64,000 bases of DNA from Nemophila menziesii (Eukaryota > Streptophyta > Magnoliopsida > Boraginales > Hydrophyllaceae), in NCBI GenBank assembly GCA_029959085.1, contig JARWIR010000017.1, positions 22,185,507 through 22,249,506 of the forward strand. Direction: 5' to 3'. The notes below the pieces were generated by a model that saw only the letters and a list, made by a program, of their open reading frames with translations, was not told the DNA's origin and ran no database searches. The position numbers and the translations under genes were made by a program. Positions within the stretch are counted from its first letter, which is position 1. Every line of letters begins with the position of its first letter. This document shows positions 10,788 to 64,000 of this stretch, in pieces.

Positions 10788-11125
10788 TTTTTTGTTTCTA
10801 GATCGTAAAACGTGTAGCTAACAAAGTTGGAAGTATTTATTAGGGTGCTTGTTATCATGTTCCATTTTTAATTGCTTGACTTGTTTTAACATTGGTAAAA
10901 ACCTTGTGAATGACTATAACATATGCATCTTTTGTACCTGTAATATATACATATCAATCATGATTGTATATTGTTAAGTATGGGTTACATTGTTAATTAT
11001 GAGTTACAGCTGTTAAATAAAGATATAGGACATCTAATATACTAACAATAGTTAAGTAATTGATAGGTGGAGAAGTATGTTAAGTCTTCTCCTTAACATC
11101 CCACTCAAGATTAGCACATAATTAT

Positions 11126-11742: not shown

Positions 11743-11967
11743 GTGTAGATTTTTTTTAAACTTCTTTTGATGTGTCAATTTTTTCAACTCCGAAAATATT
11801 TTATCTATTTACAGATTTTGTCAACTATTGATTGTATTTGTCAACTGAATCTCTTCATTTTATGTCTAACTTGGAAAACTCTTATTGTTTTAAAGTATGA
11901 TGTTTTCTTGTATTTCTAAAGCTAGTTTACTTAATACAATGGAGATTTGAAGACCATATAAAACGAC

Positions 11968-14382: not shown

Positions 14383-14574
14383 GTGAGCATGGGACTCTTC
14401 TCGACGAAAAGAAATGAAAACTTAGATATCAGTGACAAGGTTATGAGCACTGGCTTTAACCGCCTTAGATACCATGTAGCTGGCATTCATGAAGATGTTG
14501 TCAGTTGTAAGAATGTACCTACACATGTTAAGTATGTTTGTGTAAATGAGCTACTCGATAATAGAGATAATTAG
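14383..14574 (+). pseudogene. hAT transposase BED-finger fragment, unit 2
   Basis: Copy of the unit 1 hAT scrap with one residue changed (Ile for Ser in the AG.HEDVV stretch). The same truncation is present. Confidence 0.6.
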
Positions 14575-14978
14575 TCAAGGAAGATTAGAAGCTCTATACT
14601 CCTCTAAAGAGAAAGAGAGTGCTTACTCATGCATCCATTTCAGGGACTAAGATTTTGTCAGGAGAGTTTAAAGTCGGTTGTAGAATCTAGTTAGAGGAAT
14701 GTGTAGATAATTTAAATAGGTCCATATTGAATATTTTTGTTGATCACTTTGCAGAAGTTAAAGCATTTATCAGTGAAGTAATTAAACCACTTGATTCAGT
14801 CACCACGATTATTGGTCATAGTTTTCAAAATATATCCTTTTGATTTGGACATTCCTTAAAGTCAGGGATACTTGATAAGTAACGGAAGTCAATTAGGAGT
14901 TGAGATTAAGAAGTTATGCTAATGCCTCCACTGTGGCTCGAACTAGTCTGACAATAAGTAAAAACGAGTTAGGCTATT

Positions 14979-17726: not shown

Positions 17727-18717
17727 CCTCGTAAAAAATCAATCATTTATACTTGCACTATAGTTCCCTCAGTTTTTGAAACTATAACATAGTTTAGTTA
17801 GAAGGTTATTTTAAACTCATTGATCCCACTGGCCAGATGTTTAATTGAAATATATGCATTTTTAAACATGTGTTAGTTATATCTTATATCAAGTGTTCTT
17901 TTCTAGTTATTCGATATAAAGGGTCCTTTTTATTTTCATGGATGGAGAGGATAAATATCTATCCTTGATGCACTTGTATAGTGTAACACAATGGGAGGAT
18001 GTGCGTCCATTGCAACAGAATAAGATTTCACAACAAGACATCTTTGCGGGCTCCTTTATAATATTTTTCATGTATCACCATATATGTAAGCAGTTTTTAT
18101 GTTGAGGTCAAGTCATATTGTTACCAATTCATCTATGAAGGGGTATAAAACCATTAATATATGAATTGTAAAGCATTAAATTTAAACTGATATGTTGGCT
18201 TTAATAGTGTTGTATTGTAACCCTTAATGTATTAACAGTGGTATATATATTATTATTTTTATATGCATGATTTTAATCTATATGAACACATTGTTATGAG
18301 ATCTTGATTTTTAGAACCCTTATCGTAATCCTTGTCTTTTTAATGTGTAATTAATTTACCGGTAAGTTAAAAGGTATTGCGTGAGATGGTATATACCCAT
18401 AATCCGTGTGACATAAGTATATAACACGCCCTGAAAATGCTATCATTGCGGATTACGCAAGGAAGATGTTAAAGGTTTAATTTACATGTAATGCAGTGGG
18501 TATATGCCACCATAGATAATCAGGTTTTTATTTTAAACTCTCACATATTAAGTTTAGTCTTTATTGAGTTTATAAAGTGATTAACATAGTTTATTTGGGG
18601 TTTACATAATGCTTAATGGTTAAAGTGTAGGAATTTACATATTAATTATTGTTTATAGGTCCTTGGTCGGTAACAATTGTGGGTGTTGAACATCCACACT
18701 CATCATAAAAACCAAAT

Positions 18718-19013
18718 TTGTAATAAAAACTGCTACAAGATGTGTAATATATTGCAAAAATAAGGGTAAACAATTGTATCCTTGCACAAGACAATAAAAA
18801 AAGGTAACATTCTTAATCATTTGCGTCACATAGGTTTAAAAATATCCAAAAGTATTAAAGTGCATTAAAAAGATTCAAGCTGGTAATAAACACTGCTACA
18901 AGATGCCTAATACATTACAAAAACAAGAGTAACCAATTCATCCTTACACATGACGATATAAAAGGGCATATTCTTAAATATTTGCCTCACATAGGCTTAC
19001 AAAATTCCATTAT
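18718..19013. repeat. Two-copy ~160-bp direct repeat, unit 2
   Basis: Unit 2 copy of the repeat at 6785-7080, with the same arrangement. Confidence 0.7.
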
Positions 19014-19092
19014 ATTAGAAAATTAGTAAAAATAATTCGAGCCTTTCCCACCTTCCAATATGGGGAGAAGATAGACAATGATCTATATCGTA

Positions 19093-19428
19093 ATTAACTT
19101 TGTTATCAAATTGCGTTATAAGTATCTTGGAATTCTATGTCACATACCCAGCACTGCAACTACATGGACTTTTGTTATCAAATTGCACTATAGGTCCCTA
19201 AAAGATTTTTGGAGGTATAAACCCCATAAAAAGAAAGTGGCTAATAGCCTACCACGTAAATGGGTAAAACCCACCATTGAAACTGCAGACCTTTGTTTTA
19301 AAATGTCACTATAGACATCTTAAAATCTATTTCACATATAAAAATGGGTATAGCCCCCACCTCTACAATTGCAGGGACTTTTTTTATCAAATTGCATTAT
19401 AGGTCCTTGAAAATTCTATATCACATAC
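19093..19428. repeat. Degenerate four-copy repeat, unit 2
   Basis: Unit 2 copy of the array at 7160-7495, with a single substitution noted in the fourth copy. Confidence 0.6.
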
Positions 19429-20107
19429 ATAAAACGGGTACATATTAACATAATCAGAATACATAACATTATGCGTAAATTACTACCTATATATACATAA
19501 ATTATAAACAAAACACACATATCTAAACCCAATACTAAACAATACACACATACAACCAATAATATTACATAAAACTACATAAATCATTAATTTGTGAATA
19601 AGTTCAAATACCAAATATAAGACGTACTAATTTATACAACATAATAAATAATTAGAGTTAATAAAAACACTCTATATCAACCAATAAAGGATAAAAAAAT
19701 TAGGTGTTACTCAATAATTTTAGGAAAAAAAAACAAAATTTAATACAATCCCTATAAGAGGGTCTTATTCAACCTATAAAATAAATTTTCATTTAGTATC
19801 TTTGAAAATATTATTTCTAGTGAATTAAAACTCTCCAATGGCCAAACTATTTTTCTCTTTAAATATAAAATTTTACTTGTCATAAAAATAGAGTGTTATT
19901 GTTAAGTGGGCTAGAAACAAAATAAGCCCAAATCACATGATTGTCAAGTAGGCATCATTTTTTTTATCTTTAATCTCAATTTAGTTTGTACATGACCAAT
20001 CCATAACACACGGGCTTATAATATAACACTTACACACACTCGTATATCTTAAAAAAATTTAACCTAAAAAATAAAGACGGCCGCCGAAATCAAACTTCTC
20101 TGTTCAA

Positions 20108-20915
20108 GGTTTCCTTCTATATAGCCTCCTGGATTAGGAAGACATTGTTAGTCTGTTAATAGCAAGCAATATAGATGGCACTTTCTTAAAGGTACTTACT
20201 TACTTGTTTAATACTTGGAAAAATTAGTTTGGACCAATCTTGTTTTTTGTCATTTGGTGTGCAGGTTGTATGAGGTTCCACTGATAAATACATAGAGAAA
20301 AGTGCAATATTGATTAGTGAAATGTTCAATTATGCACGTGATTATCAAGTAAGAAAGGACATATTAGATGTTTATTATACGCACGCTTTTGATATATGAT
20401 AAATATTTAAATCTTGTTTTTCTTATCCATCCAGACTTGCATAATCTTTATAGATGAGATTGATGTGATTGGTGGACGTAAATTCAGTGAAAAAACAATT
20501 GCTGATCGTGAAATCTAGAGAATTTGAATGGAGGTAGGAAAGGTACCTCAATTAAATAAAAAATAAATTAGTACTTTACATGTTGAGATAAATTATATTG
20601 GTATATATATCCAGGAAAAAATGATGTAGTGGTCCCGGGTCTTCTTTGTCTAAGTAGATTAGATAGAAAAATCGAGATACCTGAGCAATAAGGATTGAAA
20701 AATCTCAAGATTCATTTCGTTTTGAAATTTAAACTTGCCGAGTTACTACACTAATATTTTTATTAAGTTATTTCGTGAATCATCAAAGTATTTATTGAAA
20801 ACTAGTTTGTGCACAGGGTTCCAATTGAGCCGAATTTTGTAATATTTTTACGTAAATCGGTATGGAAGCTAATCCTGCAAAGTTTGATTATGTCATCCAT
20901 CAAGATTTAGTGAAG
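20108..20915 (+). pseudogene. RPT4: RPT4 fragment, unit 2
   Basis: Copy of the unit 1 RPT4 fragment. It has the same internal stops in exon b (20265-20348) and exon c (20435-20533), the same Walker B DEID and the same intron borders. Shared lesions show that it was already a pseudogene when the unit was duplicated. A few private substitutions are present, for example near 20500. Confidence 0.88.
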
Positions 20916-22430
20916 GTAAAATTTAATTATCGGTTCGATTATTAGTGCAATTAACTTAAAAAATGTATTTCAAGAAACGAATCGTTTGTATTTTTTTGTA
21001 CATGTATATCATAAGTATTATTCAATTTACAGGAAAAGATAGTTGGTCATGATATTTCAAAAATAAAAATATTCATTATAATTAGGGTATAGCCCTCCTA
21101 ATTATAATGGCAAAAGCATGAATAACGAGATTTCGAAGGTGATTGATATGAGAGCAGCCACGATCTTATTAGTTGCTGCATAAAATTGCTGCTATATTCT
21201 ATGAATTCACGTCTTCAAAATCATCATCACACTGGAGCTACTGTGAATGAAATTCAACAGAAAGTGGGTAATGCGACGGTACTAGTTCATGTTCAAGAAG
21301 TTGTTCCGATTCAAATCCTGGATGATGAAAATCAAATGCACGGTGTGGAAAATTGGCATAAGAAACCACCATAGTAAAGGTTATAATATTAATTTTTTTT
21401 GTCTAATTAATTTAAGTTCTTTTTGGTTATAATTATGTTGTTTTGATTTTAGGTTTGAGTTAATGTTTAGAGGAGAGTTTTTGTGGGAAGAAAGAGAAAT
21501 GCATAGGCGTGTTATGTGTAAATCTTTTGTGTAAGTAGAAAAAGTCGAATCACAATTGATGTAGTTATTTAGAGAATTTAGTTTGAACAACAAAAAAAAA
21601 ATTTAGATTTCATTTTCTTTGTTTAGAGTTGTTAAAATTCTTTGCTATAGAATGTTAAAATGTTGGAATTTTGTATTATTGAATGAAATTTTAACAACTT
21701 ATTAGCTTTTTGTTTCCTCCATTATTGAAGATTTCAAACATTCAAACATTAAAAAAAAATTTAGTTAGAGACTATGACGACGAAGACGGTTGGCGCTGAC
21801 GTGGCGGTGACATGGCGTCATGTTGCATTGACTAACGATCAACCAACGGTGTAAATTTTATTTTGACAATGGATGTGTTCAAAATTGGATTAGAGGAGTA
21901 AAAGAAAGTATTGGCGTTATGCTATTATATTAAAAGAAGACATATCCAATATAATTGTCTATGGAGGATATAACATCCTGTATATACAATTTAAATTTAC
22001 CACATTATTAAAGATTATGTAGATAGATATTGAATGGGCGTAAAGAATAACATGTTAAATATGTGTAGATAAATTCTGTTACATACTAACCCTAAATATG
22101 TGCATATAGATTCATTAAAAATATTTTTAGGCCATAGGTAATAGCCTAAAAATAGAATTTATTAGGAATAATATAACAATTTTAGACTTGTACCTGCAAT
22201 AAAATGTGTACAAGCTCTGTGCTACCAAAACGTGAAGCTTCGAGAAAGCATTAATTAACATTATCGGCCCCACCTTCAAATAATATACCGAGTAAACCTT
22301 GAACTGCAGTTGCAGATATACCTGGAAGCCCAAACAGGGGCAAATGAACTAGATAAAAGTGTGAGTGGAAAACAAGATGCATTGTGAGTGGAAAAATGTA
22401 GCTTGTATTCCACCTACACTTTTCTCTAGT

Positions 22431-22595
22431 TCATTTGACCCTGGTTGGGCTTCAGGTATATCTGCAACTGCAGTTCAAGGTTTACTCGGTATGTTAGTTG
22501 AAGGTGAGGCCGATAATGTTAATCAATTCTTTCTCGAAGCTTCACGTTTTGGTAACACCGAACTTGTAAGCACTTTATTGCAGGTACAAGTCTAA
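22431..22595 (+). pseudogene. Ankyrin-protein exon fragment in hairpin arm, unit 2
   Basis: An open stretch reads DPGWASGISATAVQGLLGML, then VEGEADNVNQFFLEASRFGN, then TELVSTLLQ, and ends at a GTACAAG donor. The pattern, with an internal ..NTELVS.LLQ, resembles a plant ankyrin-repeat protein; my best guess is the SKIP35 type (an SKP1-interacting ankyrin protein), from memory of the family and not proven. A 76-codon frame starting at 22365 runs through it. The opposite arm carries the same exon inverted (about 22190-22350). No other exon of the gene is visible, so it is a captured exon and not a gene. Confidence 0.5.
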
Positions 22596-22638
22596 AGTTG
22601 ATATATTATTCCTAGTAAATTCCATTTCTAGGATATTA

Positions 22639-23760: not shown

Positions 23761-23984
23761 GTAGATTTTCTTAGAACTTCTTTTGATGTGTAAATTATCT
23801 CAACTCCGGAAATATTTTATCTATTTACAGATTTTGTCAAATATTGAATGTATTTGTCAATTGAATCTCTTCACTTTATGTCTAAGTTGGAAAACTCTTA
23901 TTGTTTTAAAATATGATGTTTTCTTGTATTTGTAAAGCTAGTTATCTTAATACAATTGATTTTTAAGACCATATAAAACGACCT

Positions 23985-24720
23985 ATTACATGTTCAAAAC
24001 ATCTATTAATTCCGACGTGAATATTCTCATATGAGCTTTCCATTCGAAGCTGTTTATTAAAAGAACTCCCAAAATGTCAATGAATGATGAATAACCACTT
24101 GATTGCCTAAGTCTCATTCTTGCTAAACAGTGGGCACATACATTTACTTCTCGATAAATACCTTTAATTTTGAACGATATTTTCCAACAACACCCGAATC
24201 ACATCAATCACATCAATCCAAAAAGCCACTGAACCTCTTCCCCACTCCACATGATTAATCGTGCTTATGACCTCATGATAATCCACTTTCACCCATAGCT
24301 CTCTCACTCCCATACCCATAACCGTTTGGAGTCCCTCGTAAATAGCATTAACTTCGATACTACCGCTGAGTATCCCCTAATATTCATGGTAAAAACTTTC
24401 ACCCAATTTCCCTCCTTGCCCCTTAAGACACCACATGCACCTCATTTCCCTTGATTCTCGCTCCAACTCCCATCTATGTTAAGTTTATATCCATGAATCT
24501 GTTATTTCCACCCAATCCATTCCACGTGATCATTATGCTTAACGGTTTTCTTTTTATGTCATCACCACGCTCAAATAATTGACGGCAAACCATTTCGCCT
24601 TTTCAATTAAAATTTCTCCACCCGGGAATGGCCTTATATTAAACACCATCTCATTGTGTTCCTTCAAATCCACAACTACTAAAGAGGCGAAAAACACATT
24701 CTAACTCAGCGTTATCACCT
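23985..24720 (-). pseudogene. LINE-type RNase H domain fragment, unit 3
   Basis: Diverged copy of the same minus-strand fragment, recognised by nucleotide colinearity with units 1 and 2. It has additional indels, for example a short repeated stretch near 24200-24220 and a small deletion near 24170, and no ORF survives over 60 codons. It decayed independently. Confidence 0.7.
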
Positions 24721-26369
24721 AGATTTTTTATTCTACCACATCACGTCACTCAGCCTCCTATATATGTCTCGATATTGCAGGTGAAGTCACCCGGGCTGTT
24801 GCAGCGCCTCCTAGATATTGTGCACCTATTCTGGAACCCTCAACTATTCACTAACATGCTTCTGCTGTTGACGGATGTGCTTTCCTCATGTTTGGTAATA
24901 CCACTATAGTCCTTGTTCCCTTGTAAACTTGGACCCCTAAATGTTTTAAAATTGTAGCCACAGTTTCCTACCCAAATCTCTACACTATGTTCTGCATTTT
25001 ATGCAGTGGCTTACGTTTGGTATCCGCTCCTGACCCGCCAATCTTTTATCCCTAGAGTCATATATCGTGGTTATTGGGCCGGTTTTTGTCCACCTTATAT
25101 CAAAACGACCGCAAGCAAAAAATATTTTCCTTCACAATATTAAGAATCTCTCAAAGAAAGAGGTTCGAGAGTTGTACCAAACATGTTATTTATGTCTCAT
25201 AAAAGATTATATTTTGTTCATGCATATAATAATGTGCTATTTAATTTACAGGAAAATGATTGTTGTTCATGATAATTAAAAAAATAGAACATTTATTGGA
25301 TGTGTAGCTTCTTTCATTGATTTCCCATTCAAGGTATGTGCCTAGAGTTGGTCCATCTAATTTTTCGGTTTCTTTAATGATGGGATTGGATTTTCTTACC
25401 TTGTTGTACTCTATTGGTTCATATTGCTCACTTGTGATGTTTAATAAAAAATGGTCAACACTTAATGTTTAACTTATTGTTCTAAAGGTGGTAATTTTAG
25501 TTTTCAAGTGGTGTGTTCAATTTTGATTAAAAGAGTAAAAGCAAGTATTTGTGTTATGCTATAATACTAATTGAAGATCTCCAATCAAATTGCATGGGGA
25601 GAATTAAACATCATGTAGACACAATTTAACATCTAACACACTATTAAATATTATGTAGAAAAATATTGAATGGGCTTAAAGAATAACAAGTTTAGTATGT
25701 AAACTGAACTGAACAAATTTAGCATGTTTTTTGTTTGTAGATCATAAATATTTTAAAGTAATTTTTAGAAGTCATTATATATGAATACAATAAAAAAAAT
25801 TATATAAACTATGGTGATCATAGGTTGGATCAATAATTCTTCTAGCAAGACTAGGAAGTGGGAAAAGTTTTGTTTTAATAGGAGAGACTCATTAAGTGGG
25901 GTTTTTGGAGGTTCAAATGAAGCCTAGAATGCAATTACTACCATTTCAGCATCACCCGGATAAAAAAAAGGGAGATCATAAGGGTTAATATATGACTATC
26001 AGATATGGTTACCATTTAGTATCGCCAAGATAAAATTATAGATGAAATTAATAAAAAAAATTAAAGAGAAAATCTCCCAGGCAAAGAGGCTTTGTTACCC
26101 CTTCCATACAACAATCCGATAACAATATTGATGATACAACACATTAAATTGTTATGTATCTAACCAAAAAAATCAATCTGAGACAAAAACCTTAGCTAAT
26201 GACCTTGTAATATACCATTGTGCATTATCATTTTGTTTGCAATATAACTTATGGTTATCTTTTTCTGCAGGCTGCGTAGCCTAATACACACAGATTGATT
26301 ATGGACTTAATCTTCTGGTTCCATCATAGTTAAAAGTTATAATCTAATAACGGCTTTGAAAGATTTTAT

Positions 26370-26437
26370 ACGTGAGCATGAAATGAAAACTTAGATGTTA
26401 GTGACGAGTTTATGAGCACGGGCTTTAATCGCCTTAG
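26370..26437 (+). pseudogene. hAT BED-finger scrap, unit 3
   Basis: Only FMSTGFNRLR is left of the finger. The sequence then jumps at about 26438-26445 to material that lies 5.3 kb further on in units 1 and 2. This marks the left breakpoint of the large deletion in unit 3, or of the insertion in units 1 and 2. Confidence 0.5.
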
Positions 26438-26785
26438 ATGCATATTGAACCTATAAAATAAATTTCTATTTAGTATCTTTGAAAATATTGTTTCTACTGA
26501 ACTAAACTCCTCCAATGGCCAAACTATTTTTATCTTTGAATATAATACTTTACTTGTAATAAAAAAATACTGTCATTGTTAAGTGGGCTAGATAAATAAA
26601 TAATCCCAAATCACATCATTGTCGAGTAGACACCATTTTTTGTACATGACCAGTCCATATAGTATCTGCCTTATAACATAACACTTACCCACACTCGTAC
26701 ACCTTAAGAAAAATTAACCTAAAAACTAAAGAGACGCCAAATTCTAACATCTTTTGGTCTAATCTAACAAAGATTAAGATATTAT

Positions 26786-30704: not shown

Positions 30705-32387
30705 TGAAGGAATCGCAATACCTGTAATATCAAATATACACAGCGGAAAGGTAATATTGCAATCCTAAAACCATCTAGTTGCGATTTAAGAATTTAAACA
30801 GAAACAAAAATCGATTACATACCTTAAGCCTTTGTATGAGAATCGAATTGACTTGTGACCGAGCTTCAAAATTCTTGAAGCCTCCACGCTTTGCACACCG
30901 AGGATTTGAGCCTTGCTTTCAGAAACAAATTCTGACTTGGAGACAAAAGACTTCTTATTTTCCTTGTGGGTTTTTTTTCTTGGAAGAAAAACTGATGGAA
31001 GAGTTATTCTTGTATAATGACTTTCATTATCTTATAAAACCCCAACATAAGAAAATGAAAAGACAAGAATAGGAAAAGTCAGGAACGTATAATGAAATTG
31101 ATTATCTTAATAATCTAGTCCATTACCACTTGTGAAGTGGATTTGGACCTTCTACATTACACAAAAACAATTTACTAGCCTAGCGGTTAGTGACACATTT
31201 CACACTACTAGAGGTCCGTGGTTCGATCCACAAACTTGTCAATTTTTTCCTTTTCCTTTTTGTCTTAGTTCGGTCTTATATTAAAATATTAAATTGTGCT
31301 AGCAAATTAATATACCAATATTCCAAGTATATATTTAATTAATATTTATTATCTAATAATAAAATTAATTAACGACATGAAGCAAGATTAATACACTCGT
31401 TAGTGTGCGACTACGTGGGTTCATCGTTAAACCGGTAGTATTTAACTCAATTAACTACTAATCGAGGTTGGCGTCTAACAACACTCCCCAACGACCGGAT
31501 AACGTAAAGTAACTCTATACAAAGAACCCGGTAAAGGATCATACATGTACTCCCTCTATCTTTACAGCTCCGGATCATCCTGGGATATGGTACAACTGTC
31601 AAATCCCATTAGAAAATCAACTACGTTACACGTCGATTATCAACGATTGACGAATGACCTAAGAAACTCCTTTCTTCATTCATTCTATCACCTTGGCCAA
31701 GATTCGATACAATCGTTATAATCTTATGACATCGTAGAGCTCAAACTCTTTACCTAGAGTTGATAGATTCCATCTTGACTCATCCCTAGGAGCATATATA
31801 CTTAGCTACGTCCAATATCCTTTCGACTAGCATTATGACACACTAGTAGTCCAGTATCAAAACATAACAAGCACATACACAACTACAGTGATGATCTCAG
31901 GTCAAAGGATTACAAGTATAAAAATCCTTATAGAGATTAACCTACTTGACAGTTAAGGTAATTAACCATTAGGAATCTCTAGTTTTAGTCGGTTCGATAA
32001 TCACATCTCTATGTGCATTACCTATGCACCTAACTCGGTAAACGAGAACTACCGATATTTATCCAATAAATACTTGTTAGCTACATATTAATCTAACTGG
32101 ATCATCGAGGTCCCAGCTCGATGATCCTACGATTAAGAACAAGCTTAGATTAAGTCATATGAGCTAGATTCTCATTATCATAACACCTTATGATATCTAG
32201 TTCGTAACTTAATCGAGGATCTGCCTTTATGTATATATAAATGAATACCATAAACATAAAAGCTTGCCATAGATTCAAGAAAACAATTCTCTTTAATCAC
32301 TACTGTAGGGATAACTATTATCGTGTACGGTAAACAATTGTGTTCAATTCATTACAAGACGATCAGGGCTAGGGCAAAATTCTAACA
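30705..32387 (-). repeat. Copia 3' LTR (left copy)
   Basis: 1683-bp LTR, on the plus strand TGAAGGAATCGC..TTCTAACA. It differs from the right LTR by roughly 28 substitutions and a few short indels by eye. A short tRNA-like segment (31176-31229) and a 97-codon frame (30779-31072) without recognisable domain lie within it. Confidence 0.92.
31176..31229 (+). repeat. tRNA-like segment in copia LTR (left)
   Basis: An A-box-like TAGCCTAGCGGTTA (31176-31189) and a B-box-like GGTTCGATCC (31220-31229), 44 bp apart, resemble the head of a tRNA-derived SINE. No cloverleaf is kept. The same segment is in the right LTR at 38298-38350, so it was carried by the element. Confidence 0.55.
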
Positions 32388-37854: not shown

Positions 37855-39511
37855 TGAAGGAATCGCAATACCTGTAATATCAAATATACGCAGCGGAAAG
37901 GTAATATTGCAATCCTAAAACCATCTAGTTGCGATTTAAGAATTTGCATACCTTAAACCTTTGTATGAGAATCGAATTGACTTGTGACCGAGCTTCAAAA
38001 TTCTTGAAGCCTCCACGCTTTGCACACCGAGGATTTGAGCCTTGCTTTCAGAAACAAATTCTGACTTGGAGACAAAAGACTTCTTATTTTCCTTGTGGGT
38101 TTTTTTTCTTGGAAGAAAAACTGATGGAGGAGTTATTCTTGTATAATGACTTTCATTATCTTATAAAACCCCAACATAAGAAAATGAAAAGACAAGAATA
38201 GGAAAAGTCAGGAACGAAATTGATTATCTTAATAAACTAGTCCATTACCACTTGTGAAGTGGATTTGGACCTTCTACATTATACAAAAAGAATTGACTAG
38301 CCTAGCGGTTAGTGACACATTTCACACTACTAGAGGTCCGTGGTTCGATTCACAAACTTGTCAATTTTTTCCTTTTCCTTTTTATCTTAGTTCGGTCTTA
38401 TATTAGAATATTAAATTGTGCTAGCAAATTAATATACCAATATTCCAAGTATATATTTAATTAATATTTATTATCTAATAATAAAATTAATTAACGACAT
38501 GAAACAAGATCAATATACTCGTTAGTATGCGACTACGTGGGTTCATCGTTAAACCGGTAGTATTTAACTCAATTAACTACTAATCGATGTTGGCGTCTAA
38601 CAACACTCCCCAACGACCGGATAACGTAAAGTAACTCTATACAAAGAACCCGGTAAAGGATCATACATGTACTCCCTCTATCTTTACAGCTCCGGATCAT
38701 CCTGGGATATGGTACAACTGTCAAATCCCATTAGAAAATCAACTACGTTACACGTCGATTATCAACGATTGACGAATGACCTAAGAAAATCCTTTCTTCA
38801 TTCATTCTATCACCTTGGCCAAGGATTCGATACAATCGTTATAATCTTATGACATCGTAGAGCTCAAACTCTTTACCTAGAGTTGATAGATTCCATCTTG
38901 ACTCATCCCTAGGAGCATATATACTTAGCTACGTCCAATATCCTTTCGACTAGCATTATGACACACTAGTAGTCCAGTATTAAAACATAACAAGCACATA
39001 CACAACTATAGTGATGATCTCAGGTCAAAGGATTACAAGTATAAAAATCCTTATAGAGATTAACTTACTTGACAGTTCAAGGTAATTAACCATTAGGAAT
39101 CTCTAGTTTTAGTCGGTTCGATAATCACATCTCTATGTGCATTACCTATGCACCTAACTCGGTAAACGAGAACTACCGATATTTATCCAATAAATACTTG
39201 TTAGCTACATATTAATCTAACTGGATCATCGAGGTCCTAGTTCGATGATCTTACGATTAAGAACAAGCTTAGATTAAGTCCTATGAGCTAGATTCTCATT
39301 ATCATAACACCTTATGATATCTAGTTCGTAACTTAATCGAGGATCTGCCTTTATGTATATATAAATGAATACCATAAACATAAAAGCTTGCCATAGATTC
39401 AAGAAAACAATTCCCTTTAATCACTACTGTAGGGATAACTATTATCGTGTACGGTAAACACTTGTGTTCAATTCATTACAAGACGATCGGGGCTAGGGCA
39501 TAATTCCAATA
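37855..39511 (-). repeat. Copia 5' LTR (right copy)
   Basis: 1657-bp LTR. Compared with the left copy it lacks ~18 bp near 37945 and 7 bp near 38215. The terminal CA has become TA. The transcript of the element should start inside this copy, on the minus strand. Confidence 0.92.
38298..38350 (+). repeat. tRNA-like segment in copia LTR (right)
   Basis: Second copy of the A-box/B-box segment, with one change in the B-box (GGTTCGATT). Confidence 0.55.
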
Positions 39512-53994: not shown

Positions 53995-55599
53995 TGATGT
54001 CTCCCTATTTGTTCTAAATATTAGCCCTTTGGAGACATCCTTTCCGGTGAATAAAAGACGTATTTGATAGACTTTTGTGCTTATTTGATCATATTACACT
54101 TTCTCCCCTTGGAATTTAACTATTTGCGAGCTTTTGTGCGTTAATTTGACTATTTTTAGTGCAACGTTAAAAGGTTCTTGAATTTAATGAAAGACCAATC
54201 CAAGGAGGAGAAGTGAGAATTAGAGTCTTAGCTATTTTTAGTGTGTTAGGAAGTACTTTTACTCGAGCTTCTATTTTTAGAGTGCACTTTCCTATTTCTA
54301 TTACTTGAATTATTGATTTATTATTTTTAAAGCATATGCGGTTTAATTATTTATTTAATGTGAAGCTTTAAAAGATATATGGTAATTACTTAGAGACCAA
54401 GTCAAGATAAAGAAGTAAAGGAAAGAAGATTTACATGGAAATAAGAAGATTTTAGAAAGATATGTGCAAAGAAGGAAAAGATAAAGTTGTCTTATGAATC
54501 TGAAATTCCAGCCACGTTTCAAAGACAAGCTCATAACTTAAGATTGGCTAGGAATTTGGGCGAGTGGTCTGCAACAATATAAATCTCTTTCCAAGACAAG
54601 CAGTTTCCTATATTGGAACTCCTCAAACGGATAAGTATTGAAGGAGATATGACCAAAACAAATCAGCAGCAAAATCTTACCTTTCCTAGATTTTAGGGCT
54701 ACGAATTTAAGAGTTCTTGCCTTGTCTTCCACTCCAACAACAGTTCAAGCCAATTCCTCTATCTAGGTTCTTAATTTATTTCTGTTATTAGGAACATGTA
54801 TATTATTAATTTCTTTATTGTTTTTACTTTTAATATGAGCTAAACCTTAATTACTTGAGAATCGTAATGGGATGAACCCTAATTTGTTTAATTCATGTAT
54901 TTCAATTTGGGATTAGTTTCTAGTTTAATTTGAATTAGTTATTTCATATTGTTTCTTATTTTATATTAATTTCACTATCAATGAATTAGCTAATCGGAGA
55001 CAGGTCATAGTAATTAAGCTATTCACTTTGGTGGGGAAGTGATCGCCTTGACGGGGGGTTTAATTACTGAACTAGATAATAAACGTAAGGTAGAAATTAT
55101 TGATCATGACGGACTTAGTTAACCTTATAGCCAATTGGGTAAAATAGTATTCATTCGAAGGTGGATTATTATCGCCCTGACGGGGTTTGTAACACCTGAG
55201 AATAGCTCCTAGGTCCACCCTAACGGGGGCTAGGAGATTATAGAGTCCCGACTAATATAGAAATATCAGTTATGCCCTTAAAGAAAGCATTAGTTAGATA
55301 AGTTTAGGTGATTCCCTAGCGAGACTCAAGTATAACTCATATCTGCGTCTAGTCATTTAGTATTTATTTTCAGTAATTTGTTTCGTTGCGTCTAGTAGTT
55401 TAATAACTCGAAACCAAATAAATATTTCTTATCTTTTATTTTCTGTATTTGCAATTACTACTACTTGTTTATTGAACACTTGGGTTATACCAGTCCAATC
55501 CCTGAGAACGAAACCCGACTTGTCGGAGTATTACTTGGACAACCGTACACTTGCGGTATTGTGGTTCCTTTTATTTTCGCACTAATTTTATAACACACA
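53995..55599 (+). mobile_element. Gypsy 3' LTR, diverged type
   Basis: A 1605-bp LTR, TGATGTCTCC..ATAACACACA. It shares blocks with the LTR at 48123 (for example TTTAATTATTTATTTAATGTGAAGC at 54333 in a one-base-different form) but is otherwise clearly different in sequence and longer. The element at 48123-55599 is therefore either chimeric or made of two insertions. Confidence 0.7.
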
Positions 55600-57093
55600 A
55601 GGACCCACCATTTATTTAAGTGTATTTTAATACATGATCACCCATAAGTGTGGTAACCTCTTTGAAGAAGAACCTAGCCACATGTCCTCTATAGGTCACT
55701 AAGTTTACCTCCAATACCTCATAGGTCAATCACATGTGTATTTTTGTTTCCATCATAAATTATTTTTGGAAAACCTATTATAATTATAGTAACATAAATT
55801 GAATCATCTTACAAAAGAGAGACCAACATAAATATTTACCCCAAAACTATTAGCGTACTAGGATAAACTCCAAAGGTATGATGATCAACTCTCATAGAAG
55901 GATAACTTGCAAGTGTATGAGTCGTCACATGTAGTAGAAGTGATAAAAAATTTCACAGGAAATAAAAGTTTAAATACATACTTTTATCTTTAAACTAAAT
56001 TATATTGAAGGAAAACTAAAATAAACTATTAGTGGCCCTGTAGAATTATTAACGCCTAAAGTTCTAACCTATGTGATTATCTATCTAGTTTAGATCTTCT
56101 AATTCTCAAACTCAACTAGAAGTATATAGTTATAACTCCGAAAACTATTGCAACCTCCTCTCAGGTGTATTTTAATACCTAACACAATTCAATTAATTGG
56201 CCAAATCATATAAATAAATATTACACACAAGATTTATAACCAACAAGGCATCCACAATCTAATGAAATTAACATATAATCCCAAATTTCATAAAAATAAA
56301 TTCAAAATCATAGCCAAGATTCATAAATGTGAAATCTCAAGTTAAATATGGCTAGTTCATGCTTGGATAAAGAGAAAAATAATAAAGTTGTTGATAATTA
56401 AATGGAAGAAAAAGAATTAAGGTTAACACAAATTAAATTAGGGAAGATTTGATAAAATAGGTGTTGCCCTTGATTCCTTCCTTGCTCCAAGCGTTCATAG
56501 CTCTATAATAAGATAAGTGACCCACTTTAAGGCTAAAAACTGGTATATATGTTACCCAAAATGTTTCGCATCAGTTAGGCCAACTCAAATGAGTCAAAAG
56601 TGGCATAATGGATTATTTTGTAAATTCTAGATAGCTTGGTCTTCATATAAAACAACTACAACTTTATCAATTCAACTCCGATTTCTGAACAGTTCGTCTC
56701 ACGTGATATACACACCAATATCTATCTTGTGTGTAAGTATCATGATCATAACTCTCACCAATTATTTTTGTGAATTTTCAAAGTTGATGAAAACGTTTGG
56801 CTGGTAATTTTTGTTGAGTTCTCATGAATATTTTGGATTCTTTGCGACTTGACTTAGGTTTTCCTTGAAAATATGACTTCTTAAGTTCACCTTGGGGTCT
56901 CGTATTATCCATGTTCCCAAGAGTTTCACACTTAGCATACAAATAATCTCAAATTGCTCCAAAAACACAAATATATCCGGAATTAGCTAACAACTCAAAA
57001 CATGTCAAATAAAGCGATAAATCTCACATTCACTCTCATAAATCCACCTAAATGATATCATGTATATCTCAAAATTATCACGAAGATAGAGAC
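55600..57093 (-). mobile_element. Gypsy LTR, reverse orientation
   Basis: On the minus strand it begins TGATGTCTCTATCTTCGTG at 57093, and it follows the LTR type found in units 1 and 2 (4324-5797), for example TTGGAGCAATTTGAGATTAT against TTGGTGCAATTAGAGATGAT. The far end lies about 55600-55900 and is not sharply defined. The 57094-57200 stretch is its interior 3' flank. Confidence 0.7.
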
Positions 57094-57200
57094 ATCACTT
57101 ATCCTTGACCAACCATGTTTAAATTGGCCAGATTTCCCTCTAGTAGTACACTAGGCCGTGATAGTACTCAGACTACCTTAATTGGTTTTATGCATTACAG

Positions 57201-57482
57201 GTCTACCAAACTTCATGTGTTGGTTAGATGCATTACATGTTTGACACACTTCATGCTTTTGTTTGATACATTTGTTGGAATATTTGTTATATGTCTATAT
57301 GGGACAATAACCTATGTTGGAGCATTTACAACATAGTTTGGGATTTTGAAATATTCTACTTTAGAATGTATTAGGTATATTATTTGCAATACTTTTAAAA
57401 TAGAGTTCCTTTTAAATACAAGTTCCTATTATTTAGTTGTGGATATAAATGATATAATAAATTGTAATCTAACTTACATCAT
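57201..57482. other. No gene seen
   Basis: AT-rich sequence. Two short frames (57115-57336 and 57346-57528) have no recognisable domain. Confidence 0.4.
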
Positions 57483-60110
57483 GCAACTTCAAGTTGCCTT
57501 GTCTATATGTTACGCAACTTCAGGTTGACTTGTCTCTCCCCCTAATAAGGGGGTAGTCACTTGGTAAAATGAATCTTCTGGTTCTTTTAAGTAGATACCA
57601 AGTAAGTAATCTATTATTTGACGTATCATTACTGCACTAGGTGACCAATTCGGTCTTGTAATAATACAAAGTTATTTGGATTATGACATCTTTTCTTTTG
57701 CATAATGAGCGTTTCAACTGCTTGAATCTGTATATATATATAACCCCAAAGAAATAACATATTTTATTTTCATACACACTTCTGGTGAGACTTTTAGTAA
57801 ATAATGCAAAAGATATACATTGTTACGGACACTTGTGGCTTATACAAAATACTAATTTTGGATATTATCCTTTAAATTTAGTAAATTTCTTCGGGATTTA
57901 CTTTTAACATAATTTTACAATTCTGTACCACAAGGTAACATAACTTTTGAGCATCCAAAAACCTTTAATTAGATCAACGAAATGTCTTAGTATTCCACGA
58001 GTACGCGAACACTATATAATTCCACTTTATCGATAATATTCATGCTTATCATTTCGTGATGGCTTATTTACCGTGACGTTTTACTTTCAATATATTCCTT
58101 ATCATCCACTTTTGGTGGTAAGGATTTTTTTTCTTACCTTAACCTCGTCTGAAGTTTGGGTCACCAAGATGTTAATTTTAGACACATTAAAAGACATTGC
58201 ATTTTCCTTTAGAAACGCACTTCCATTTACTTCAAGGAATGGTTTTTAGTTAGAAAAATAATATTTAAGTCACTCCAGGTCAACTTTTGTAAAAGCTGGA
58301 AATAATGTATTTCCTTCAGAGAATAATGTGATTATGTATCTCCAGAGAATAATTTCCAATCATAGAATACAACATTAGTTCACTTGTTTTGTCATCGTCA
58401 CGTCTATTTATTTAGATAATGAAAACATTTACATTCACTTTAGGGAATGTAGCTCCACTCACTTCGAGGAATAAAATGTTATAGTTTACAAGGAAATAGA
58501 ATGCTAAACCCTAATATTGGGATAAAACTCTACTTATGATATTACTACTTTGGGAGTATTTACATGACATGAACTGTGTAAAAGGTCTTAATGTATCTTT
58601 CAAAAAAATCTACAGTTTTTAATTTTAATACATATTTGAAATTTATTGCATTCGTTATGAGAATATAATTCTAATCACTTCAGGGAATAGTATTATGTAA
58701 ATGGAACACGAATTGTGATTTTACGAGACAAACAATCTCATAGTATTTTGTAAAACTTTTATTCGTGCTATAACTGCTTCAGGAGTATATGCGTGATCTG
58801 CTACAAGGAGACGTATATTTGTTCCACTTGATAAAATTACATTTGCCCGATTGAAACCCTCACTAAATTTAGTAGTACCTGAATTGTACTAAGATTTTCT
58901 TGTGTCCAACTTACTAACAGATAATTATATTGTCCAAATGGTAAAACCCTTATTATTTATAAGGGAGGTTGCAAGTTCGAAACTTTTATCATGCAAACTT
59001 TGAACAAGATATCCAATAAAATTGTGCATTTCATAAAATTTTATTTAGTTCAACTTATCTCCCCCTAATTTTATGTCATTTTCATGAATAGAATTATTTT
59101 GTTAATGAACTTCTGGTTCATTATTTCAGGAATTATATATATGAAAAGACTTTTGGTTCATGAAAAGTATCTCCATTAATGTGTAATCAACGAACTCCGG
59201 GTTCATAAAAGTTGGAATAATTTCATCATCAAGTCTTTTAAAAGATAGTCTATATTATATTATGTGGGAAAAAAATTATCATTCTTAAATATTCATGAAA
59301 TTCACATGAGTTCTTCATCATTTATTTTTTTTGCTTCAAACCTAATCTTTTTTTTAAATTCTCGATCCACTAAATAGACTTCTGGTTTATTGAGATTTGT
59401 TACAACTTTCGTGTCAAAAATACTTAATTTATACTTCATGCATAAATATTTTTTTTGTTCAAGATTTTGGATCTAAATAATAATATTATGCTTCGGGCAT
59501 TTTTTTTTTGTCTTTAGTCATCGGGCCTATAACAATTTAGGCTTCATGCCTATAGGATTCATTTTATACTTTGGTATATGAGATTTTATCTTTAGGCTTC
59601 AAGCCTATAAAATTTCTTTTATGCTTCTAGCATATAAACTTCGTTGTAAGTTTTTCTTGAAAGAAATAATTATAATTTTATTGCACCCTTCATGGATCTC
59701 TAGTTAATTTCTCGATTTATTTCTTCAATGATTTTCCAATATTAAGGAAATTCATTAAAAATAGTCATTTAAATTTATATTAGCAATTATACTTTATTCC
59801 TTAATTCTTTTTGTGTAATTTTTTTTTAACAAAAACTGATACAGGCTTCTAGCCTTAAAAATTTGATCTACGCTTCAAGTCTTTAAATAAATAAATAAAA
59901 TTCATGCTTCAGGCATATAGATTGTATCAAAGCTTCAAGCCTATGAGATCTATTTTATTTTTCTGGCATATAAAATTTGTGATAGGTTTCCGGCCTATAA
60001 AATTTGTTATATACTTTTGGCATATAATTGAGTTCTAAGCTTCGGGCCTATAATTTTTGGTATATGCTCCCGATAATATAAAAATATATTTAGGTTTTGG
60101 GCCTATAAAT
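57483..60110. repeat. Hairpin array, left part
   Basis: At least 20 short stem-loops, read on the plus strand as stem-TTCNN-stem. Clear cases: 57483-57497 (GCAAC/GTTGC), 57515-57527, 57777-57787 (CAC/GTG), 57881-57901, 58106-58118 (CCAC/GTGG), 58223-58242, 58308-58325, 58431-58450 (ACATTC/GAATGT), 58546-58558 (TACT/AGTA), 59103-59123 (TAATGAAC/GTTCATTA), 59141-59161, 59192-59204 (GAAC/GTTC), 59373-59391, 59488-59500 (ATGC/GCAT), 59538-59552 (TAGGC/GCCTA), 59593-59607, 59620-59634 (TATGC/GCATA), 59843-59855, 59904-59916, 59982-59998. Stems differ yet remain paired, while the loop stays TTCGG, TTCAG, TTCTG, TTCAA or a near variant. No coding frame is present. Confidence 0.88.
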
Positions 60111-61261
60111 TGTAGAATGTGAATAATATATAACAAAATGTAGATGGGGGAATATTTTTATACAGCCCCACAACTGTGAATGTTCTAAACTAAAGCCTCC
60201 ATTACCTAGTAGTTGTATCCCAACCAAAACCCAACTAAAATAACAAATACCCCTTACTACACTGATAGAAACCAACAATCAAAACAAAGACCCCATTAGG
60301 GTATCATGCACATGCCTTCTCTCTCTCACTGTGCCCTCTCTTTGCTTCACTGTGCCATCGAACAGCAAAAACACATCCACTGCCACTCTTCTCACACAAC
60401 CTTCCACCTTCCACCTCCACCTTCCCACCGCTCCACCATGGCCTTCCACCACTGTTGCTGTTGCAGATCTGACGAAGCCACCACCAAAACTGCAACACTG
60501 CTTCGCGCCTGTTTCATCTTCTCCAGCCTCAGTTCGTGGACTAGACCGCTCCACGACGCCAGAACAGCACCACACAAACTCTGTTGCAGCAGCACTTCGT
60601 TCGTGGAGAAGAGCAGGAACAAGACCATTGCGAGGCCATCATCTTCGATAGGATCTCGCTGCGCCACCCCCTTCCAGATCCTTGATTCAAGAACTCCAAG
60701 AACTCTGATTCAATGACTCGCTGCGCCACCCCCTTCATCCCCCACCTTCAGATCTCTTCTGCGAACCTGCAACACCACAACCACGAAGATCTGCGCCGCT
60801 GTGACGAAGCCAGATCCGTAGCCACCATCTGCGCCGCCCTCTTTTCACTCTTCCCCATCACCATCGAGCTTCGACGAAGCCTGACCTCCATCGAGCAGTG
60901 CCTCCAGCGAACCATTCTCGCTGCCGCATCACCGGAGTCCACCAACACGTACCCAACTTGTCAATAGCCCAGCCCCTTGTGTCAAGCCCATTGGATATGG
61001 ATGTCCCAACCTTATGTTCCCTTGTTGTTGGTCCAGCCCATTAGGGGTTGTAGCTTGGTTTTATTATTTATTTTAAACTTTGTTGTCCAGCCCATTAGGG
61101 GCTATAGTTTTTTTTTAAAACTTGGGTGTATTTAGTGTGAGTGGGGTAAGGGGTCAGCCTATTTTATTAGTCTTGGGTGTATTAGGATAAATTGGGCTTG
61201 GGTATGGCCCTAGGGGTATAGTCTTAGATCATTTTTTACTTCATTGGACATGTGTTTTAGA

Positions 61262-61595
61262 CAAAAAGGCTTGGGTACAGCCCTATGGGTGCAGACTTGG
61301 GTAAATTTTGACTTGGACAAACCCGTATCTTGGGTAAATTTTGACTTGGACAAAAAAGAAGCTTGGGTACCGCCTTATATCCATGGACTTTAACATGTAT
61401 ATAACTTATAGCAATGCTACACTAAAATATAAAAAGGGTATAGCCCTATGGGTGCAGACTTGGACAAATTTTGACTTATACAAACCCGTAGCTTAGGTAC
61501 ATTTTGACTTGGACAAATACGCAGCTTAGGTACAGCCTATAGCCACGGACTTTAACATGGATATAAGGTAAAGAAACGCTACACAAAAATAATAG
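61262..61595. repeat. Two-copy ~163-bp tandem repeat
   Basis: CCCTATGGGTGCAGACTTGG starts at 61281 and again at 61444. Both copies continue through AAATTTTGACTT.., a second inner copy of that motif, and a GGACTTTAACATG stretch, ending at ..GCTACAC.AAAAT. Confidence 0.85.
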
Positions 61596-61848
61596 GTCCG
61601 TACCCGAGGGTACGGATTGGATACGGATTAGTGGAAATAACAAAAGAATAAAAAAATGAATTGTGTGTCAGGAAAAGTAAGAGAGAGACTATGCTTGTTT
61701 AGTTTGATTAGGCTTTTAAAAGAACAATTCTTAACTTAGGCTTTAAAATGGGGGTGGGAATGAAATTGGGCTGTAATTTGAAGTTTCCTCAATGTAGATA
61801 GTAGAGTATATTTTAAAAAAATTAATGTTATAAGACAAAATAAATGTA

Positions 61849-61902
61849 TAGCCTAGCGGTTATACCCAAATACTTTACTATCTAAAGTCTTAAGTTCAAA
61901 TC
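61849..61902 (+). repeat. tRNA-like (SINE head) segment
   Basis: TAGCCTAGCGGTTA (61849-61862), identical to the A-box-like stretch in the copia LTR, is followed 42 bp on by AAGTTCAAATCC, a B-box-like sequence. The remainder of a SINE is not clear. Confidence 0.5.
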
Positions 61903-62079
61903 CCCCATACTTCTCAAAGTTATACCAATTCTATTTTTTTTAACTTCGATATGATAAATAAATATACATATAGTATTATTTATATTAATCAAAATTGAGA
62001 CTTTGAGTCTACACCATTAATTTTTATAGTTTCGGGGTTTTGAATTTTATTAAGGGTTCGATCCCTTTGAAATAAATAA

Positions 62080-62451
62080 TTAGCTTTAGGCTTTCTAAAA
62101 ATGCATATAGGCTTCAAGCCTTTAAATTTCAGTATATGCTTCTGGCATATAGAATTTTGTTTTAGGCTTCGTACCTATAATTTAAAAATGCTTCGTATGT
62201 TACTCCATATGATATAATTTTCGCCCTTTATAGCGTTAGTTTCTGATTTTTTTATGCTTCGGGCATATAATTTATTTCCTAGGCTTCGGGCCTATAATAT
62301 AAAATTTAGGCTTCAGACCTATACGATTATTTTTCCATGCTTATACGGTTATTTTTCCATGCTTCGGGCATTGTAGGCTTCAAGCCTAGAAAAACATCTC
62401 GTTTCATTTTTAAGCCACTCAAAATTATATTTACAAATAGGCTTCATGCCT
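62080..62451. repeat. Hairpin array, right part
   Basis: Continuation of the array after the intervening block: 62109-62121 (AGGC/GCCT), 62133-62151 (TATATGC/GCATATA), 62253-62267 (TATGC/GCATA), 62280-62294 (TAGGC/GCCTA), 62359-62371, 62374-62388 and 62439-62451, plus decayed ones near 62163 and 62306. AGGC-type and ATGC-type stems roughly alternate. Confidence 0.9.
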
Positions 62452-62590
62452 CTTTTTTTCTAAAGTGATAACCGATTTATCTGCTTGAATAGTATAGGAG
62501 TATTGTATAGGATGCAATGGAAGTCCATCTAATATTTATTGGTTGCAATGGAAAGTCCATATAATACTCTCTCTTATTTTCTTTGTGAAA

Positions 62591-62594
<4 letters not shown>

Positions 62595-62635
<41 letters not shown>
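62595..62635. repeat. (AT)n microsatellite
   Basis: About 41 bp of uninterrupted AT dinucleotide repeat between the hairpin array and the primer site. Confidence 0.97.
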
Positions 62636-62638
<3 letters not shown>

Positions 62639-62689
62639 TAGAACAATATAAATCATACCTGGAAATATTCTTCCTTGATTCGATCGGCA

Positions 62690-62708
62690 GAGGCTCGTGC
62701 TGATAACG
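62690..62708 (-). promoter_or_regulatory. Copia-type primer site
   Basis: On the minus strand, directly after the LTR, the sequence reads CGTTATCAGCACGAGCCTC. A TTATCAGCACGA start next to the LTR is what I associate with Ale/Retrofit-like copia elements. It places the array downstream of the LTR, in the transcribed leader of a minus-strand element. Confidence 0.6.
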
Positions 62709-62937
62709 TGTTATAAACTAAAGAAAAGAAGAAGATAAAATCTAGGGAAGGACATTTTCTTGTATATTAACATAATCAACTAACTCTATTACAATGAAAG
62801 GGTCTTCTATTTATAGGAAAGGAATGACCCTTCACTTGCCACATTAAGAAGATATAAATAGGATGACCTTTGGCCTTTGGACATCCACCTTTATTAAAGT
62901 AAACTATTCATAATAAACTTGTTATATTTCTAACTCA
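62709..62937 (-). mobile_element. Short copia 5' LTR
   Basis: A segment of about 229 bp, on the plus strand TGTTATAAACTAAAG..TTTCTAACTCA, with short inverted ends (TGTTA / TAAC..CA). On the minus strand it ends ..TTTAGTTTATAACA just before the primer site. It includes TATTTATAGG on the plus strand. I found no second LTR to the left, so the element is incomplete or its 3' LTR is outside recognition. Confidence 0.6.
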
Positions 62938-63154
62938 ATTTTGTGTTTTATATATGTAGATTGTTTAACTAAATTTAATTTTTTTTCTATTTTTTATCCC
63001 GTTGTTAAATGTAGAGATTATTATCCAAAGGGTCTTGAAGAACCCCCTATAACCCAATAAGACCGGGTGAATTCCCTCTTCTTACTAAAGCTCACAATCA
63101 AATTTTAACACTAGGCTAAAATTCCAATTACTCTTTTACCCTTTTTTGTTTTAT

Positions 63155-63300
63155 TTTTCCTATATATACTTATTTAATCAGAATTATTATAAAAACCTAA
63201 TATTTATTCTTTCTCTCTCATCTCTCATCTCTCATCTCTCATCTCTCATCTCTCTAGCCTCCCCTCTCTCTCTCTCTCTCTCACGTGAAAGCTTCCGAAA
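63155..63300 (+). promoter_or_regulatory. TATA-like box and CT-rich leader
   Basis: CTATATATACTT (63161-63172) is followed about 40-50 bp later by a pyrimidine-rich stretch: six units of the heptamer CTCATCT (about 63213-63254) and a CT run (63262-63282). This resembles a plant promoter with a CT-microsatellite 5' UTR. Confidence 0.45.
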
Positions 63301-63323
63301 CTCTGAACCTCCAGCATATGAAA

Positions 63324-63690
63324 ACCTTAGCTCCGGCGGTTCGAGATCTGTGTCGTAACAACTCTGACGAGTACAAATGCACATATTTCTTCTAATTTAA
63401 GTGTTTTATCTCGTCCATTGAAGCTTCGACTGTGTAAAGCTGAAGATGAAAAGTCTTTACGAGACTACTCTTCAAATTTTAGCCTTATTGATCTGTTTAC
63501 AAGTTTGATAGCTGTTGAAGAGTAAAAATCCTAGCTTCGGCGGTTCGAGATCCGTGTCGTAACAACTCCGGCGAGTACAAATGCACATCTTTTTTCTAAT
63601 TTAAGTGTTTTATCTCAAGCTTTGACGGTGTAAAGTTGAAGGTTAAAAGTATTTACGAGACTACTCTTCAATTATCGCTCAATCTGTGCG
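63324..63690. repeat. 204-bp tandem duplication
   Basis: The stretch beginning CTCCGGCGGTTCGAGATC at 63331 recurs as CTTCGGCGGTTCGAGATC at 63535. The copies match for ~150 bp through GTAACAACTC.G.CGAGTAC, TTTAAGTGTTTTATCTC and GAGACTACTCTTCAA. Copy 2 has short deletions near 63620. Confidence 0.9.
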
Positions 63691-63735
63691 TGAAGACTCG
63701 TCAAAGATGGCAGTGAAGCCATGGATCTCTAATGC

Positions 63736-63957
63736 CTGCTCCTGCTGCCGGAGTTTGACAGTGAACTGATTCTGCCGTTCAGTTCCTTGATCAAATACTT
63801 GCTTAAGAATCTTAAGCTGGAGAGCAGTTTGCCGAAGAGCATTTTGTATTTTGAATTGGCCAAAGGTTTTCCGGCATCCAGGGAAGTCGTATCCACCGGC
63901 GGAGGAAGCAGTGAAGTTAGGAGTTGTGATAAGGTGGCGCGTGGTTCTAGTTTGTAA
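63736..63957 (+). CDS. Unrecognised short open frame
   Basis: After an in-frame TAA at 63730 the plus strand is open: LLLPEFDSELILPFSSLIKY, then LLKNLKLESSLPKSILYFEL, then AKGFPASREVVSTGGGSSEV, then RSCDKVARGSSL and a stop. It has no start codon of its own after the TAA; upstream a short MAVKPWISNACSCCRSLTVN frame begins at 63708 in another frame. The composition looks protein-like (amphipathic Leu/Lys part, Gly/Ser linker), but I do not recognise it. It may be a decayed gene or an exon. The 89-codon frame on the other strand (63729-63998) is considered its shadow. Confidence 0.35.
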   Translation: MLLLPEFDSELILPFSSLIKYLLKNLKLESSLPKSILYFELAKGFPASREVVSTGGGSSEVRSCDKVARGSSL

Positions 63958-64000
63958 TGTTTTTTATTTTTATTCTTTTTAATTGTAATACTCATCAACT

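Follow-up and report, generated by a model that had tools for sequence, protein, structure and literature searches.

About 30 mini-hairpins of the pattern stem-C-NNGAA-G-stem can fold from the minus strand of a truncated long terminal repeat (LTR) retrotransposon remnant in the plant Nemophila menziesii. The remnant occupies positions 57182 to 62913 of a 64,000-nucleotide stretch of genomic DNA (GCA_029959085.1, contig JARWIR010000017.1, forward-strand positions 22,185,507 to 22,249,506), which is referred to here as the window. The minus strand is the sense strand of the element, so that the same core reads CTTCNNG, and its loop TTCNN, on the plus strand. We read the array as a structured RNA signal of a Copia lineage that has been kept and multiplied in a non-coding derivative resembling the large retrotransposon derivatives (LARDs), most probably for recognition by Gag and packaging. 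Our confidence in this reading falls a little short of even.

The array far exceeds what base composition would provide. Between positions 57400 and 62460, 16 perfect TTCNN hairpins with a stem of at least 4 bp are present, against a mean of 0.68 in dinucleotide shuffles (maximum 4, n=200), while the comparison region at 1-57399 holds 10 against a mean of 7.85 (20 shuffles). The original prediction, made from the letters of the window, had proposed this shuffle comparison as a check, and shuffled sequence indeed falls far below the observed count. Its figure of at least 27 mini-hairpins is reached only if bulged, imperfect and TTT-centred forms are counted, although the array itself is real. 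Furthermore, the cores point in one direction. The element parts in the window contain 31 CTTCNNG cores (33 if the two within a nested insert are included) and none in reverse orientation. Three further pairs flank the core at 16 of these 31, whereas the other 63 centres together reach 8/70, which leaves the TTC centre with 16 of the 24 paired cores among the 64 centres tested. Across window positions 1-57181, cores with three further pairs number 0/27 in one orientation and 1/47 in the other.

Relatives elsewhere in the genome, designated by locus number, were sampled as ten pairs of 10-kb stretches and 20 additional 2.5-kb stretches. Pairing at the four flank positions lies above all 2,000 shuffles in every one of seven bodies (window, L018, L024, L011, L022, L014 and L028), and the three-pair counts exceed all 500 shuffles at 12 of the 20 shorter loci. 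For a comparison independent of pairing, 41 core positions were picked in aligned copies by core presence alone, blind to the flanks; positions with the core in fewer than three copies or in less than 30% of copies were left out, and the alignments keep copies covering at least 70% of a segment. The majority-state flanks pair at 30 of these 41 positions, 24 directly and 6 with a bulge of one extra base on the 5' side (plus strand), against 4.25 after shuffling (maximum 12, n=5,000). When identical flanks are collapsed, 17 of 32 pair directly (1.6 shuffled, maximum 7) and 4 are bulged (0.59 shuffled, maximum 5), so that the bulged class alone is not beyond shuffling. The direct stems are of 11 types (AAT, AGA, AGG, ATG, CAA, CCA, GTA, GTG, GTT, TCT and TTT) and the bulged stems of 4. 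The alternation of AGGC and ATGC stems described in the prediction is real and goes with a diverged ~27-bp tandem repeat that makes up part of the array.

Rates of change among copies set the stems apart from their surroundings. Because spacer rates may include misaligned columns, nearby flanks 5-14 bases off were used as the reference. Relative to these, the six stem positions show a substitution ratio of 0.34 at A/T sites (95% interval 0.16-0.62) and 0.57 at C/G sites (0.38-0.85), while the two N positions of the loop give 1.71 (0.93-2.69) and 1.18 (0.72-1.80), respectively, with both intervals including 1. Slow stems together with an unslowed NN are what one expects when selection keeps a stem paired and leaves part of the loop free. 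TTC is also slow among copies, though the choice of cores favours a conserved C, TTC and G, a bias that leaves only the stem and NN rates unaffected. The blind-chosen pairing and the slow stems together uphold the earlier proposal of selection on a folded single strand. The accompanying claim that changes in one arm are matched in the other holds between the hairpins of the array, and weakly between copies of the same hairpin.

The array is widely dispersed in the 1.517-Gb genome. The hairpin 16-mer GGCTTCGGGCCTATAA has 270 exact occurrences and its reversed control none, which answers the genome search recommended with the prediction and rejects the array as a feature of the window locus alone. 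LTR pairs about 6 kb apart were found in four of eight stretches tested, with identities of 100% in L018 (207 bp), 99.2% in L011 (253 bp), 97.3% in L024 (260 bp) and ~89-92%, in two pieces, in L022. Since their LTR pairs are 100, 99.2 and 97.3% identical, L018, L011 and L024 have been recently mobile. More specifically, L018 has a 5-bp target-site duplication, GTTCC, and LTR ends TGTTATG..TTATAACA, with a polypurine tract CCAAGGGGGAG directly before TGTTATG. Its body of ~5.8 kb has a longest stop-to-stop open reading frame of 118 aa, no Pfam family scored above cut-off in its 7 open reading frames, and its 38 cores are spread along 1,390-7,168. Searching the genome with the LTR produced 1,348 first-look candidates; 40 of these were scored, and several of the scored matches pair 5.5-6.3 kb apart.

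The window element is colinear with L018 in four blocks (94.6, 80.0, 84.8 and 89.3% identity). It belongs to a dispersed family of LTR retrotransposons that appears to be non-coding and has young members. The element region in the window holds no open reading frame of at least 150 aa. Its 5' LTR contains a TATA-like CCTATAAATAG; no further copy of it turned up in the window, so that the element there has a single LTR. Ty1/copia features are present in the family, namely TG..CA LTRs, the 5-bp target duplication of L018 and, in four relatives, an inverted repeat GGACATCC/GGATGTCC around the junction of polypurine tract and 3' LTR. The predicted link to a Copia-like LTR and primer site is borne out by the LTR and primer site of the window and by the LTR pairs of the relatives. 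The LARD features tested are likewise present: an LTR pair with target duplication, an internal domain of more than 4 kb without protein products (tested in L018 only), a primer site and a polypurine tract.

A larger repeat lies near the 3' end of the same elements (L018:1400-2400, about five copies; also in L024, L011 and L022), in which CCTT..CCAAG..CTTGG..AAGG is followed by TTTTAACGAGGCA. Its arms differ between copies yet seem to remain paired; folding of a single stretch was no better than in shuffles (z 0.57). Polypurine-like GGGGGAG sites number three to five per element in L018, L024, L011 and L022. At G000:C1:85410665-85765640, six pairs of the hairpin 16-mer alternate in orientation, 3.6-12.3 kb apart within a pair, and resemble the outcome of several duplications of one inverted pair.

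A 21-mer spanning the LTR end and primer site occurs exactly 376 times in the genome, and its reversed control does not occur. From 44 such sites listed on C1, 14 were hand-picked away from hairpin 16-mers, and 420 bases were read at each, at about +3.5 to +4 kb. Copia pol-like coding sequence appeared at four of the 14 (L055, L058, L059 and L066), which in a hand-chosen sample is no estimate of the pol-bearing share; L058 and L059 are open over 139 aa. Another four match the non-coding L018 body (L056, L060, L061 and L068), two match the diverged L050 type (L057 and L062), and four match neither, among them L063 with a reading frame that by eye resembles a long interspersed nuclear element. 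Three of the four pol-like pieces show one weak 43-base match to L050 (E 5e-4), and the diverged relative L050/L043, read for gag remains, gave nothing clear. The 139-aa piece of L058 has 868 relatives at E<=0.001 among 882 candidates; of those listed, the named ones are mostly from plants (Prunus, Malus, Gossypium, Beta, Nicotiana and others), and some are annotated PF25597 or 'retroviral polymerase SH3-like'. A Pfam search with the piece itself gave no match.

The pol-bearing L058 element shares the hairpins. Its first 900 bases (L069) contain ten CNNGAAG cores and none reversed; eight of the ten have three more pairs and two of these have six, and one further hairpin has its closing pair changed on both sides (TAGGTTTGAAACCTA). 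The prediction had suggested an RNA leader, which fits this pol-bearing relative; in the non-coding family the array is more than a leader and runs through the body. The pol-bearing elements that share the LTR end and primer site are candidate partners for mobilisation of the non-coding family in trans. At L069:575-900, about three units with A- and B-box motifs stand in a row in antisense orientation, which we take to be derived from tRNA in the manner of short interspersed nuclear elements (SINEs); the non-coding family has one such segment (window 61791-62080), more than half of which finds a match at 19 of the 40 loci searched (L009-L048).

The primer site itself points to an unusual primer. 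The 14 bases CGTTATCAGCACGA, which are followed by letters that vary between copies, complement TCGTGCTAATAACG of the host tRNA-Ile(AAT) at 13 positions, and the sole mismatch lies opposite A34. The complemented stretch of the anticodon arm corresponds to tRNA positions 27-40. A 24-mer of this tRNA has 57 exact genome matches, and all three that were fetched were called tRNA-Ile(AAT) by ARAGORN. Mature tRNA-Ile with an AAT anticodon carries inosine at position 34, and inosine pairs with C; a primer site copied from the tRNA would therefore show C. Among the loci sampled, including L069:19-32, the base opposite A34 is C at 19 distinct places and T at one (L039), which is compatible with possible half-tRNA priming that records inosine as C. 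Drosophila copia is likewise primed by a half-tRNA, with a primer site complementary to an internal tRNA stretch and not to the 3' end; there the tRNA is initiator tRNA-Met, whereas here it is tRNA-Ile(AAT), with the mismatch opposite the wobble base. In ice plant, mcr-miR6, reported as a novel small RNA (microRNA), is antisense to the same junction of LTR end and primer site (window positions 62695-62712, minus strand) in its C form (PMC4977306). A primer site with C therefore also exists in another plant, and mcr-miR6 may derive from, or be directed against, a related Copia element.

To our knowledge, how plant LTR retrotransposons and their gene-less derivatives choose RNA for packaging is poorly understood. 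A non-coding element would need Gag, protease, integrase and reverse transcriptase from a coding partner, and must itself retain the LTR, the primer site, the polypurine tract and the signal, of whatever kind, by which its RNA enters the particle. The repeated internal feature common to the non-coding element and the pol-bearing leader is the array. We suggest that the GAA loop, presented by any stable stem, is bound by a partner protein, most likely Gag through its nucleocapsid; many sites, each of them weak, would jointly mark the RNA for packaging, and a non-coding element would gain from carrying more of them. A more extended scheme, in which a Copia lineage labels its genomic RNA with CNNGAAG hairpins read by Gag, a gene-less parasite multiplies the label and hijacks particles, and half-tRNA-Ile priming leaves wobble inosine recorded as C, is tentative and on the unlikely side. 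The motif is short and countable: NN is free, GAA is fixed, and the paired stems vary between hairpins. As it is common to non-coding copies and a pol-bearing relative in one genome, with some copies very young, a packaging code in plants becomes testable.

Several observations weigh against this reading. Pairing is not above the shuffle maximum at 8 of the 20 short loci, L036 has three cores of which none is paired, and 11 of the 41 blind-chosen positions pair in neither register. Choosing positions by their core accounts in part for the constancy of GAA and the closing pair among copies. Direct compensation was examined at 17 aligned hairpins in 16-17 of the matched copies. Watson-Crick pairs fill 914 of the 1,051 cells and changes are mostly one-sided. 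Compensated double changes number just 7 against 2.2 shuffled (maximum 7, n=2,000), are partly due to shared ancestry and fall at one position in three cases; few doubles are expected because copies decay after insertion, and within-family compensation is weak evidence. On the sense strand, G-U cells (50, of which 15 come from one fixed position) scarcely differ in number from A-C cells (44). Folding both strands, as the prediction had advised, gave local structure better than shuffles on each, and unrestricted folding of one segment gave z -3.4 for sense and -2.5 for antisense; among array copies, neither the G-U and A-C counts nor the folding energies separated the folding strand. The array in a pol-bearing leader was seen in the first 900 bases of one element (n=1), and this leader alone is not beyond flank shuffling (8 paired; mean 4.0, maximum 8) because its stems are of few types. 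Lastly, a role for Gag and for packaging is something that we infer.

The hairpins might instead act in RNA for another protein or step, such as export, stability, control of translation in the coding partner (where a long structured leader would precede gag), dimerisation or reverse transcription, which we consider rather unlikely. The array does sit in the leader of the pol-bearing relative, where translation and export signals also lie, and the non-coding body has, besides the array, a second structured-looking repeat and several GGGGGAG polypurine-like sites. Yet the non-coding L018, without a recognisable gene to translate, carries 38 cores, against 10 in 900 bp of the pol-bearing leader, and loop-loop dimerisation is unlikely because the GAA loop is not self-complementary.

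The matched stems could also be a by-product of short quasi-palindromes spread at the DNA level by slippage or template switching, to which reverse transcription is prone, with one arm rewritten from the other. Part of the array being a diverged ~27-bp tandem repeat agrees with such an origin. Against it, the stems change more slowly than nearby flanks while the enclosed NN is not slowed, and most one-arm changes in copies have gone uncorrected. Moreover, of the 24 paired cores at the 64 centres compared, 16 belong to a single asymmetric one, TTC. We regard this origin as improbable.

Very improbable, in our view, is that the units serve as double-stranded DNA targets of a dimeric protein, or as marks in small-RNA silencing, with no folded RNA. 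Their arms are inverted repeats 5 bp apart, and Sireviruses carry palindromic repeated motifs thought to be regulatory (PMC2829016). A DNA-binding dimer would, however, keep the letters of its half-sites, whereas here pairing is kept across at least 11 half-site types, and an asymmetric centre is retained on one strand. Chance is ruled out by the shuffles, the blind-chosen positions and the counts for the single asymmetric centre, and simple tandem repetition as a full account by the left hairpins, which are dispersed and have other stems.

A known Rfam RNA as the identity of the array was rejected after scans with the covariance models of Rfam 15, which gave no match at E<=1 in window 55000-64000 and, in L018, L024 and L011, one sub-threshold match outside the element (L024:474-588). 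Viral and prokaryotic contig collections scanned for the array gave 0 matches, which has little bearing on other plants. No description of a hairpin array of this type was found in the open-access literature, represented mostly by titles and the beginnings of abstracts.

Several published systems come close to the family. LARDs such as Sukkula (PMC7215508, PMC9033089) are alike in their LTR pair, primer site, polypurine tract and body of more than 4 kb without a protein product, in their presumed dependence on a coding element and in reported conserved RNA structure, with secondary structures said to be well conserved (PMC7215508). The family differs from them in that its structure is a recurring mini-hairpin, whose loop motif is fixed and whose stems are of many types, and which one pol-bearing relative also has in its leader. 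The nearest worked example is satellite tobacco necrosis virus 1 (PMC6475782), a helper-dependent RNA with multiple short stem-loops, a short loop motif (AxxA) and variable context; the array has the corresponding features of dispersed packaging signals, with multiple stem-loops, one loop motif and variable stems. That system is a virus in which binding of the capsid protein was found by in vitro selection, whereas the present array is known from sequence alone. In-plant data there weigh against AxxA as a true packaging signal (PMC6475782), a fair warning for the packaging reading proposed here. Sireviruses (PMC2829016) resemble the family in having repeated non-coding motifs in plant Copia elements and multiple polypurine tracts or polypurine-like copies. 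An inverted repeat around the junction of polypurine tract and 3' LTR, reported also for almost half of classic Copia elements, agrees with the one found in the four relatives. In contrast, Sireviruses have CGG-CCG palindromes as their motifs, placed in LTRs or before env (PMC2829016), and the motifs described here are GAA-loop hairpins in the internal region.

Table 1. Features of the retrotransposon remnant, in window coordinates.
Feature	Position	Strand	Remarks
Truncated remnant of an apparently non-coding LTR retrotransposon	57182..62913	-	5' LTR, ~3.9 kb body and nested insert; cut off at 57182
5' LTR	62709..62913	-	Ends TTTATAACA; start degenerate; based on sequence, LTR pairs in relatives and genome matches
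Primer binding site CGTTATCAGCACGA	62695..62708	-	13/14 bases complementary to anticodon arm of host tRNA-Ile(AAT)
Right hairpin cluster	62081..62459	-	7 perfect TTCNN hairpins, AGGC and ATGC stems; 16 copies aligned
Body segment with tRNA-derived, SINE-like A-/B-box motifs	61791..62080	+	Antisense to element
Nested insert	60145..61790	.	1,646 bp; 8-bp target duplication AATGTAGA at 60137-60144 and 61791-61798
Middle hairpin cluster	59480..60110	-	6 perfect hairpins and diverged ones; spacing ~27-28 nt
Left hairpins, dispersed	57483..59123	-	3 perfect; stems CAAC, GAAC, CCAC; bulged TTCA/GAA and ACTA/AGT types

The left limit of the window element is the point at which homology to L018 and L024 begins. 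The span given in the prediction, 57483..62451, is not continuous, as it is interrupted by the nested insert. This insert is a later, foreign insertion: relatives that match both sides run straight across its position, and its two cores are both unpaired. Its 8-bp duplication points to a DNA transposon, which may include captured sequence, and part of the insert is GC-rich.

Elsewhere in the window, positions 1-10699 and 11930-22638 form a near-identical tandem duplication of ~10.7 kb (99.5%). Part of a third copy lies at 23946-26439 (88.5%), and positions 10113-10792 hold an inverted repeat. Direct repeats at 30705-32385 and 37855-39509, 96.5% identical, are likely the LTRs of another element.

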